Positions 34,248 to 63,019 of a stretch of DNA of 64,000 bases are shown one piece after another (the first letter of the stretch is position 1; each line of letters begins with the position of its first letter). Source of the stretch: Candidatus Gastranaerophilales bacterium. Its GTDB lineage: Bacteria; Cyanobacteriota; Vampirovibrionia; Gastranaerophilales; Gastranaerophilaceae. The notes below the pieces were generated by a model. The model made no database searches. It worked only from the letters and a program-made list of their open reading frames with translations, and was not told the DNA's origin. Both the position numbers and the translations under genes were made by a program. Location of the stretch: positions 1 through 64,000 of the forward strand of contig CANQNW010000012.1 in NCBI GenBank assembly GCA_947625305.1. Reading direction: 5' to 3'.

Positions 34248-34276
34248 TTGCAAAAGGATAAGTATTGATATATAAT
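34248..34276 (+). promoter_or_regulatory. Promoter for the TupA-like gene, leaderless geometry
   Basis: TTGCAA (34248-34253) is 17 bases from a perfect TATAAT (34271-34276), which is six bases (ttactt) before ATG 34283. Transcription would start at the initiation codon. Confidence 0.65.
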
Positions 34277-34282
34277 TTACTT

Positions 34283-35257
34283 ATGAGTAAATTATTAAGC
34301 ACCATTTCAGATTTTTTTCAATCAGGAAAACGTAATCAATATCCGGAACGGCTCAGAAACAACGGTAAAAGTGTTTTTGATTATCCTGTTATTATGGCTT
34401 TAGATGAAAAGGAATATCCTCAATATTTAAAAGATGCTTATTATATTAAGTTCGGTCAAAAATTAAATTTAAGACATCCTAAAAATATAAATGAAAAAAT
34501 TCAATGGTTAAAAATTTATGATAATTTACCTATTAAAACTCAATTAACTGATAAATTGCTCGTTAGAGATTGGGTTAAGGATAAAATCGGAGAAAAATAC
34601 CTAAAACCTGTATTATGGATTGGTGCTAAATTTGAAGATATTCCTTTTGAAAATCTGCCTGATGATTTTGTAATTAAATGCAACCATGGCTGTAAATGGC
34701 AATTCATAATAAAAAATAAAGATAAATTTATTAAAACAAAATCTATATATGAATATACAAAAAATAAGCTGGTCAATTGGTTAAACGAATCTTTTTTCGG
34801 TTGGAGTGATTTTGAAACACAGTATAAAAATATTCGGCCGAAAATTATTATAGAACCGTTCCTTGTTGAAGAAAATGAACATACACCTTTAGAAATAGAA
34901 GTATGGTGTTTTAACGGTAAACCAAAAATTATACAAAGAATTAAAGAAACGGTTGAAAATAATAAAATATGTAAAATAGTTAATTCTTTTGATGAAAATT
35001 TTAATTTTATGGATATAAAATTTTATTTTGCAGATGAAATTGTTCCGGCTGAACCTGATGAAAAAATAAAACTGGCTAGAGATTTAAGTGAAATCTTATC
35101 TAAAAATTTCAAATTGGTTAGAGTAGACTGGATGATATATGATAATAAATTATATTTCAATGAAATGACATTTACTCCTTATTCCGGTTTTATTGTATTC
35201 CCGCCTAATAATTATCAGTACTATAATATATTAGGTAAAATGTTAAATTTAAAGTAA
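34283..35257 (+). CDS. TupA-like ATP-grasp glycan biosynthesis protein
   Basis: The 324-residue protein matches the ATP-grasp family linked to teichuronopeptide and capsule synthesis. Recognisable parts are RHPKNINEKIQWLKIYD at the start, PDDFVIKCNHGCKWQ (ATP-binding region), IIIEPFLVEENEHTPLEIEVWCFNGK and the metal-binding VDWMIYDNKLYFNEMTFTP near the C-terminus. It probably attaches an amino acid or similar group to a surface polysaccharide. A TTG at 34265 with aagga upstream is a possible alternative start, but TATAAT lies just before ATG 34283. Confidence 0.85.
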   Translation: MSKLLSTISDFFQSGKRNQYPERLRNNGKSVFDYPVIMALDEKEYPQYLKDAYYIKFGQKLNLRHPKNINEKIQWLKIYDNLPIKTQLTDKLLVRDWVKDKIGEKYLKPVLWIGAKFEDIPFENLPDDFVIKCNHGCKWQFIIKNKDKFIKTKSIYEYTKNKLVNWLNESFFGWSDFETQYKNIRPKIIIEPFLVEENEHTPLEIEVWCFNGKPKIIQRIKETVENNKICKIVNSFDENFNFMDIKFYFADEIVPAEPDEKIKLARDLSEILSKNFKLVRVDWMIYDNKLYFNEMTFTPYSGFIVFPPNNYQYYNILGKMLNLK

Positions 35258-59244: not shown

Positions 59245-60420
59245 ATGTTTGATAAGTTTTTTTCTGAAAGAATAAAAAATACACCTTCATCTTTTATAAG
59301 AGAGATACTAAAGGTTACACAAAATTCAGACATTATATCTTTTGCCGGAGGTCTGCCAAATCCTGTATCTTTTCCGCAGGAGGAATTAAAAATTTCTATG
59401 AACAGGATTGCAGATAAATTCGGTGCAAAAATTTATCAATATTCTACGACAATGGGGCTTGATACTTTAAGACAGTATATAGTTGACAGGTATAAAAAAA
59501 TCTGGAATATGGATATAACAATTGATAATGTAATAATAACAACAGGGTCCCAGCAGGCACTTGATTTAATCGGAAAAGTTTTTGTTAATGAAGGCGACAA
59601 TGTTATGGTGGAAAAACCTTCATATCTTGGTTTACTTCAAGCATTTTGTTTATACAGAGCAAACTTTGTACAGGTAAAATTAAATGATGACGGACTTGAT
59701 ATTGATGATTTAAAAAGAGTTATTTCGGAATATAAACCGAAAGTTGCTTATTTAATTCCTAATTTTCAAAATCCGACAGGGCTTACCTATACAAAAGAAA
59801 ACAGAGAAAAAGTTTTTGATGTAATTAAAGATGAAGATTTAATATTAGTTCAAGATGATCCTTATGGTGAATTGAGATTTGAAGAAGGTGAAAGAATTCC
59901 ATACATCGGATTAAATCAATCAGAGAAAAATATTTATTTGGGGTCTTTTTCTAAAATTGTAACACCCGGAATGCGCCTTGGGTACATAATTGCAAATAAA
60001 GAAATAATTAAAATGCTTGAAACGGCTAAACAAGCATCTGACCTGCATTCCAATATATTCGGCCAATACTTGATTTCAGATTATTTATACAATAATGATT
60101 TGGATAAACATATTGAAAAAATAAAAAAATTATATAAATCTCAAGCAAATGCAATGGTTAGAGCAATGGAGGAATATTTTCCTAAAGAAATTAAATTTAC
60201 AAGACCAAAAGGCGGAATGTTCTCTTGGGTAACTTTAAAAGAAGGGACAGATGTCCTTAAGCTTTTTGATAAAGCAATTGCACAAAAAGTAGCATTTGTC
60301 CCCGGGCACCCTTTCTATGTAAAACCTGAAAATGTTAATACTTTGAGGCTTAATTATACAAATGCTGATGAAAATACAATAAGAACAGGTATTAAAAGAC
60401 TTTCTGAGGTTATTGAATAA
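59245..60420 (+). CDS. PLP-dependent aminotransferase, class I/II (LysN/MocR-like)
   Basis: The 391-residue enzyme has ISFAGGLPNPVSFP near residue 35, TTGSQQALDLIGKVFVNEGD, PNFQNPTGLTYT and the lysine loop LGSFSKIVTPGMRLGY with the PLP lysine. The layout matches 2-aminoadipate-type or multi-substrate aminotransferases; the exact substrate is unclear. It is followed by the acetyltransferase gene after 4 bases. A ggattgagga ribosome site precedes ATG 59245. Confidence 0.88.
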   Translation: MFDKFFSERIKNTPSSFIREILKVTQNSDIISFAGGLPNPVSFPQEELKISMNRIADKFGAKIYQYSTTMGLDTLRQYIVDRYKKIWNMDITIDNVIITTGSQQALDLIGKVFVNEGDNVMVEKPSYLGLLQAFCLYRANFVQVKLNDDGLDIDDLKRVISEYKPKVAYLIPNFQNPTGLTYTKENREKVFDVIKDEDLILVQDDPYGELRFEEGERIPYIGLNQSEKNIYLGSFSKIVTPGMRLGYIIANKEIIKMLETAKQASDLHSNIFGQYLISDYLYNNDLDKHIEKIKKLYKSQANAMVRAMEEYFPKEIKFTRPKGGMFSWVTLKEGTDVLKLFDKAIAQKVAFVPGHPFYVKPENVNTLRLNYTNADENTIRTGIKRLSEVIE

Positions 60421-60424
60421 TAAA

Positions 60425-61137
60425 ATGATTGATAAATTTTTTTCAATAAAAAAAGTTTCAAGCAGAATAATTATAAAATTCTTTTGTATAAAATTTTCTT
60501 TTAAAATAAGAAGTATAGATTCTGCCGGAAAAAATAATATAATAGATATTGATAAAAATATAAAGGCTGTTGTTAAAATTTCAGGTAACAATAATACTCT
60601 GATTATAAAAAGCCTGACTTCCCCCCCCCATTTGAAATTCAATCTAAAAAATGTCTGTCTGATATAAAAATAAATATTAACGGAAATAATAACAGTATTA
60701 TTATAGAGGATATATATAACAGTAAGCTTGAAATTGATATAGGAAATGCTGTAGGCGCCGATAATGTTAATATAAAAATCGGTAAAGAATTTCAAAGTAT
60801 AGGTCTTGTTATATTAGCACATCAAAATTCAGTTCCCGTAACTATCGGTGACAATTGTTTAATTTCTAAGAACGTTACAATAAGAACGGGGGAGTTACCG
60901 CATAAAATTTTCGATAAAGATACACATGAAGATTTAGATAATTCAAACGGGGTTATAATAGGAAATCATGTTTGGATAGGTGAGAGTGTGTATATAATGA
61001 AAAAAGTAAGGATAGCGGATAATTCAGTTGTCGGTAGTGCAAGTGTTGTTACTAAAAAATTTGATGAAGAAAACGTTGTTATAGCCGGAAATCCCGCTAA
61101 AATATGCCGAAGAAATATTATGTGGGAAAAATATTAA
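60425..61137 (+). pseudogene. Acetyltransferase gene (hexapeptide type) out of frame at a C9 tract
   Basis: The first part reads from ATG 60425 to TAA 60667 and ends early because of nine C residues at 60621-60629. One added C (or loss of two) joins it to a second frame (60630-61137) coding for a left-handed beta-helix acetyltransferase with NNNSIIIEDIY, VTIGDNCLISKNVTIRTGE, GVIIGNHVWIGESVYI, VVGSASVVTKKF and IAGNPAKI. The joined protein would be 237 residues. Residues after the tract are intact with no extra stop, which suggests a recent or reversible event rather than decay. Phase variation or an assembly error must be told apart. The start is 5 bases after the aminotransferase stop. Confidence 0.7.
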
Positions 61138-62481: not shown

Positions 62482-63019
62482 TAATAAAAATGTACTGGTT
62501 CATGTCTGCTGCGCTGTATGCAGTGCATATCCAATAGAAAAACTAAAAGAAGACGGATACAATCCTGTTTTATATTTTTTTAATCCGAATATATTCCCGC
62601 CCGAAGAGTATAATAGAAGGCTTGATGAATTAATAAAATATTCAAAAAAAAAGGATGTTGAATTAATAATAGACAGACAGGATTCAGAGGGCTGGTATAA
62701 TTGTATTATCGGGCTTGAAAATGAGCCTGAAAGGGGCAAAAGGTGTTTAAGGTGTTTTGAATACAGATTGTTATTCACGGTTTTAAAAGCTTTTCAGCTG
62801 GAGTATCAATATTTTACAACAACCCTAACGGTAAGCCCGCATAAAAACTCAAAAGATATATTTAAAATAGCTCAAGAACTTGCTAATAAGTATGAACTTA
62901 CATTTTTGGATTATGATTTTAAGAAAAATGACGGTTTCTTAAAAACTATGAAAATAGCTAAAGAAGAAGGTTTTTACAGGCAAAACTACTGCGGGTGTGA
63001 ATTTAGTATGTTTAGTTAG
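62474..63019 (+). CDS. queH: Epoxyqueuosine reductase QueH
   Basis: QueH converts epoxyqueuosine in tRNA to queuosine without cobalamin. The 181-residue protein has VHVCCAVCSAYP near residue 8, KRCLRCFEYR in the middle and YCGCEFSMF at the C-terminus, which together supply the iron-sulphur and metal sites. FFNPNIFPPEEY is the family signature. It overlaps the VKOR gene by 8 bases and the U32-like gene by 8 bases at its 3' end. Confidence 0.93.
   Translation: MNNNKNVLVHVCCAVCSAYPIEKLKEDGYNPVLYFFNPNIFPPEEYNRRLDELIKYSKKKDVELIIDRQDSEGWYNCIIGLENEPERGKRCLRCFEYRLLFTVLKAFQLEYQYFTTTLTVSPHKNSKDIFKIAQELANKYELTFLDYDFKKNDGFLKTMKIAKEEGFYRQNYCGCEFSMFS

Follow-up and report, generated by a model that had tools for sequence, protein, structure and literature searches.

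A poly-C tract as a probable phase-variation switch of an O-acetyltransferase gene in a gut-dwelling Gastranaerophilaceae bacterium whose genome carries 74 poly-C/G tracts

What does a run of nine C residues do inside an acetyltransferase gene, at the very point where its reading frame breaks? The question arises in a member of the Gastranaerophilales, a non-photosynthetic and mainly gut-dwelling cyanobacterial group also called Melainabacteria, and most of what is known of slippery C/G tracts comes from a small number of mucosal pathogens and the species closest to them. Here, we propose that the tract is a contingency switch of a NeuO/OatWY-like O-acetyltransferase gene, a reading to which we give a probability of about 0.87.

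The window, by which we mean the whole 64,000-nucleotide stretch of DNA analysed here, has a GC content of 31%, and the C9 tract at 60621-60629 on the + strand is its only C/G run of more than five bases; a Markov model of the window predicts 0.006-0.011, or about 0.01, C runs of at least nine bases. The first-pass annotation had described the tract as improbable by chance and as lying exactly where the frame shifts, and the letters themselves bear out its position and place the two halves of the gene in different frames. The upstream half (60425-60667, + strand) opens with the ATG at 60425, five bases 3' of the stop of an aminotransferase gene, and encodes 80 residues, crossing the C tract out of frame before it reaches a stop. 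The downstream half (60631-61137, + strand; 168 codons plus a stop) carries a NeuO/OatWY-like left-handed beta-helix O-acetyltransferase domain, in a frame without a stop from the C tract until 61137. The two frames join at a tract length of 1 mod 3, so that 10 or 7 C would, as had been proposed, yield a single product of 237 residues; since the flanks are open in different frames, a change of one unit at C9 would switch the product. The earliest start codon of the downstream frame lies 358 nt 3' of the tract, past the codons for the active-site His and Trp, and the assembled state therefore yields no product with a catalytic centre. The aminotransferase gene directly upstream (59245-60420, + strand) is probably on one transcript with the acetyltransferase gene, and in a search for a local promoter of the latter, consensus matches were no more frequent than in shuffled sequence. 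Within the window, the acetyltransferase gene stands outside any recognisable polysaccharide cluster. Elsewhere in the window, a gene at 34265-35257 that lacks a C/G tract resembles by eye the TupA-like ATP-grasp gene of a tract locus on another contig (C1:116085), and is possibly its constant paralog.

The identity of the enzyme is consistent with a surface role. The second half matches the Pfam Hexapep model (5.7e-10), in keeping with its initial assignment as a hexapeptide acetyltransferase, and matches to the NCBIfam WbbJ and maltose acetyltransferase models fall below cut-off. By sequence, in searches that included a profile search, its nearest solved relatives are OatWY (2.6e-21 for the window's second half, 4.9e-22 for an in-frame ortholog from genome G210) and NeuO (1.9e-19 and 2.8e-16, respectively), for which the active-site residues have been named, and NeuO is phase-variable through heptanucleotide repeats (PMC3046976). 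The putative catalytic His codon at 60901-60903 (+ strand) aligns with OatWY His121 and NeuO His119/147, and a second active-site residue, the Trp codon at 60973-60975 (+ strand), aligns with OatWY Trp145; both residues are invariant among 26 homologs, and the intact downstream frame that had been claimed retains a left-handed beta-helix hexapeptide domain together with its catalytic His and Trp. The OatWY pocket residue Trp195 is also matched. Among the six active-site residues common to NeuO and OatWY, three are thus matched and two differ, with OatWY Met108 replaced by Leu and Arg148 by Glu, and OatWY Arg197 lies outside the alignment; because Met108 and Arg148 are not kept, the glycan acceptor may differ from that of OatWY. 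In an AlphaFold model built for the G210 ortholog (pLDDT 79, pTM 0.83), the prolines encoded by the tract fall within a loop that lies between strands and is modelled at low confidence (residues 38-52); by this model, an extra residue there should be tolerated. A Foldseek search with the model ranks OatWY first with weak scores, and the family assignment therefore rests on sequence. Homology to OatWY and NeuO suggests a role in surface modification. Genome G000, to which the window belongs, has two strong NeuB matches near tract clusters on contigs C11 and C15; by these matches it may make nonulosonic acids, and a nonulosonic acid is a possible acceptor for the enzyme.

Taken as a switch, the locus would work as follows. 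Slipped-strand mispairing at replication would add or remove one C in the tract, and this gain or loss would open or close the O-acetyltransferase reading frame. The assembled sequence would represent the OFF state, which encodes an 80-residue peptide that lacks the active site, and in the ON state the enzyme would probably transfer an acetyl group from acetyl-CoA to a surface glycan. Slippage within a population would then produce a mixture of acetylated and non-acetylated cells, and the putative benefit would be evasion of phage or host.

Comparison with relatives, which the first-pass annotation had suggested, shows that the C run is conserved in place and variable in length. Five syntenic orthologs, the window's included, share the aminotransferase neighbour, and each has an unbroken run of C at the equivalent position: C9 out of frame in G000, C10 out of frame in G257, C8 in frame in G208, and C9 in frame in both G210 and G294, with frame states read from single assemblies, one genome per species. 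Protein identity between the window's second half and the orthologs is 56-76%. The tract length that opens the frame differs from species to species among the five, implying that flanking indels were gained and lost while the C run persisted. The tract is thus a pure repeat, long enough to slip and far above chance expectation, that is conserved in position and varies in length between close relatives. Homologs of the acetyltransferase at other loci carry tracts as well: G288 has two tandem homologs with tracts at positions other than the window's, the tract lies near the C-terminus in G128 and near the N-terminus in G299, and a homolog in G013, from another family of the order, has a 12-base run. 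These differing positions point to repeated origins of tracts in acetyltransferase homologs.

Length changes extend to other loci in the closest relative, G257, which shares about a dozen orthologous tracts with G000, most of them of changed length, at 82-96% DNA identity at these other loci. A transketolase-like gene has G10 and is in frame in G000 vs G9 and out of frame in G257, and the flanks match at 47 of 48 bases; a methyltransferase tract is 10 and in frame in G000 vs 9 and out in G257, and a short-chain dehydrogenase tract is 9 and in frame vs 10 and out. The MBOAT tract changes in the other direction, from 8 and out of frame in G000 to 9 and in frame in G257. Two contigs of G257, C57 and C104, overlap at the 3' end of locus L154 and the 5' end of L162 by 103 bases at 98% identity with a differing C tract, which is suggestive of two tract lengths met in one sample, a pattern that a repeat could mimic. 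In the same genome, a stretch with a G10 tract is repeated several times at 93-96% identity, with some copies at contig starts (L152:1-220 and L163:1-160, matching parts of L121, L148 and L149); to judge from these repeats, tracts may spread when an entire module at the 5' end of a gene is duplicated.

The window's tract is one of many. Genome G000 (1.97 Mb, 26 contigs, 97% complete) contains 74 C/G runs of at least 7 bases, the window's C9 included, with lengths of 7 (n=3), 8 (n=6), 9 (n=40), 10 (n=20) and 11 (n=5) and a maximum of 11; runs of at least 9 number 65, against about 1 expected. No weight was placed on two G7 runs, one in a D12 DNA methyltransferase gene (C15:7266) and one at C5:47022, which may simply be normal coding sequence. 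Well inside genes, with coding sequence on either side, lie 26 of the 74 tracts, 15 in frame and 11 out, and the window's C9 belongs to this in-gene class. By Pfam and NCBIfam annotation, the tract genes encode transferases (glycosyltransferase families 2, 8 and 61, RgpF and DUF4422/DXD), four FkbM methyltransferases, WbqC, WbuX and TupA-like ATP-grasp proteins, a PEP mutase with cytidylyltransferase, a nucleotidyltransferase, a DegT aminotransferase and a PIG-L deacetylase, as well as UDP-galactopyranose mutase, MBOAT, AlgX-like and LicD proteins, short-chain dehydrogenases, a transketolase, LuxC and several radical SAM proteins. About 23-25 of these genes fall, by family annotation only, to glycan assembly or decoration, and by analogy with known systems glycan genes are the usual cargo of contingency loci. 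Acting together, the 74 tracts probably cause the cell surface of the bacterium to vary at random in the gut.

One tract locus has a different kind of content. At L082:3002-3385 (contig C8 of G000, about 25.5-25.9 kb), two tandem short peptide genes have near-identical leaders (LSISEINQLFSDIIE), each separated by a C11 or C9 tract from a variable core that ends in Cys-Gly-Gly; both genes are out of frame in the assembly, and 3' of them, at L082:3402-4625, lies a gene for a radical SAM protein similar to peptide maturases. Judged by its sequence, the locus is an apparent cluster for a ribosomally synthesised peptide whose core would be phase-variable.

A further group of tracts lies beside candidate promoters. 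Read on the G strand, 12 of the 74 tracts are followed by a TATAAT no more than 20 bases downstream, vs about 1.9 expected from the frequency of TATAAT in the window, and the corresponding comparison on the C strand gave 4 cases. Three of the 12 are in genes (the window's C9 and two others), which leaves about nine real candidates. Five of these candidates share one form, a TTG-like box followed by G8 or G9, nine bases and TATAAT, in which the tract looks like a spacer that sets the distance between promoter boxes. The five sites are C1:102302, C1:229162, C3:106073, C3:121666 and C14:1910 (loci L067, L070, L073, L074 and L058); the nine bases between tract and TATAAT are TAAAARTGG-like, and two of the downstream genes code for Kelch-repeat proteins. 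Both this promoter motif and the acetyltransferase were absent from the viral contigs searched for replicate sequences. Neisseria has poly-G spacer promoters of this type at porA and opc, which the small group of G000 tracts with G8-G10 directly before TATAAT resembles; the window's tract differs from them in lying inside a coding frame.

We surveyed runs of at least 8 bases over 286 genomes of the order, and the tract trait is mainly that of one family and is variable inside it, even within the window's genus. In that genus, 13 of 23 genomes have at least 20 tracts and 9 of 23 have at most 5, with a range from 0 to 121. Genus g2 is almost uniformly tract-rich, with 179 tracts in one genome; genera g18 and g19 mostly have zero, and these two genera also give the weakest MutS domain-I matches. 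The 22 genomes outside the family have a median of 2.5 tracts and a maximum of 15. We lean towards the view that the Gastranaerophilaceae independently built one of the largest known poly-C/G phase-variation repertoires, with up to 179 tracts of at least 8 bases, mixing frame switches in glycan genes, promoter spacer switches and peptide leader/core switches, with MutS kept and with repeated gain and loss inside the family.

Several other explanations of the split gene must be weighed against a switch. An assembly or sequencing error, under which the true tract would keep the gene open and the gene would be ordinary and constant, had been named at the outset as the main competitor. Homopolymers are the commonest site of indel errors and the species is represented by a single assembly, but dozens of A/T runs of 7-9 bases within the window sit in intact open reading frames (e.g. 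A9 at 62644), indicating that the assembly is not generally indel-prone, and each of five genomes, assembled separately, has the tract, with lengths and open-frame phases that differ between them. G000 holds 73 further tracts, and a miscount would leave the tract itself standing. We therefore consider it unlikely that error explains everything. The true count could be one more or less than nine, or nine could be the majority of a mixture, and our conclusion is independent of that count. Least probable of all is that a decaying pseudogene, its frame broken at the tract, is on its way out: the gene is out of frame in both G000 and its closest relative G257, but its 168-codon downstream half is without a stop, keeps the active site and is 56-76% identical to its orthologs, three of which are intact, and the C run stays uninterrupted as its flanks diverge.

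The remaining two explanations accept the tract and deny that it is a genetic switch, and we regard each as very improbable, somewhat more so than error. The tract could be a programmed or tolerated frameshift site, at which a slipping ribosome or polymerase yields some full-length enzyme; polymerase slippage rescues frameshifted poly-A genes in Buchnera (PMC2831843), and the two out-of-frame orthologs here would require an identical direction of shift. Against this, three of the five orthologs are in frame and require no shift, at other loci it is sometimes G000 and sometimes G257 that is in frame, and slippage during expression leaves the promoter-side tracts unexplained. Mutation bias alone, for example through weak mismatch repair, would make the tracts a functionless build-up of C/G runs, and such a process fits the wide spread in tract number among related genomes; many of the identified tract genes are nonetheless glycan genes, and the tracts adjoin TATAAT above expectation and hold their positions across species. 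Loss of MutS as the cause of the tracts was rejected, with MutS1 present in 279 of the order's 286 genomes, whether these are rich or poor in tracts. The evidence instead supports phase variation, as the first-pass annotation had read the locus, through the 8-10 C of the five orthologs, the 74 tracts of the genome, and the changes of length and frame between G000 and G257.

The proposed switch has counterparts in well-studied bacteria. Like the loci of Campylobacter jejuni, those of G000 lie in an AT-rich, host-associated genome and consist of C/G runs, mostly of 8-11 bases, within surface-glycan genes whose frames are opened or closed by tract length (PMC4965091). C. jejuni has 12-29 C/G runs of at least 7 bases per genome (PMC4965091), whereas G000 has 74, belongs to an unrelated phylum, and has its putative switching read from assemblies. 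NeuO, the polysialic acid O-acetyltransferase of E. coli K1, shares with the window's enzyme its family, the catalytic His/Trp and, by our proposal, a simple-repeat switch; in contrast, NeuO is prophage-borne and has heptanucleotide repeats at its N-terminus, while the window's gene is chromosomal, differs at two active-site residues, and carries a mononucleotide run that falls in a loop of the helix domain. OatWY, which acts on the W/Y capsule of Neisseria meningitidis, is the closest solved structure by sequence, alike in His121, Trp145 and Trp195 and unlike in the two residues that are Leu and Glu here. Within the open-access literature, with subscription papers and preprints largely outside the search, we found no paper that mentions both phase variation and Gastranaerophilales, and the sole paper found to mention Melainabacteria together with phase variation concerns flagellins and does not link the two. 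A homopolymer survey of 99 genomes found C/G runs of 7-8 bases over-represented in about ten, and the word cyanobacteria is absent from its text (PMC2831843). The mechanism is already known; the lineage, the scale and this locus are, as far as can be told, new.

The presence of a tract set more than twice that of Campylobacter in a gut commensal from the cyanobacterial lineage suggests that switching the surface at random is a general answer to life in the gut, with its phages and antibodies, and one reached independently. Our analysis provides definite loci at which existing metagenome reads would allow switching to be counted. Finally, many split genes in assemblies of this group may represent OFF states, and be neither pseudogenes nor errors.
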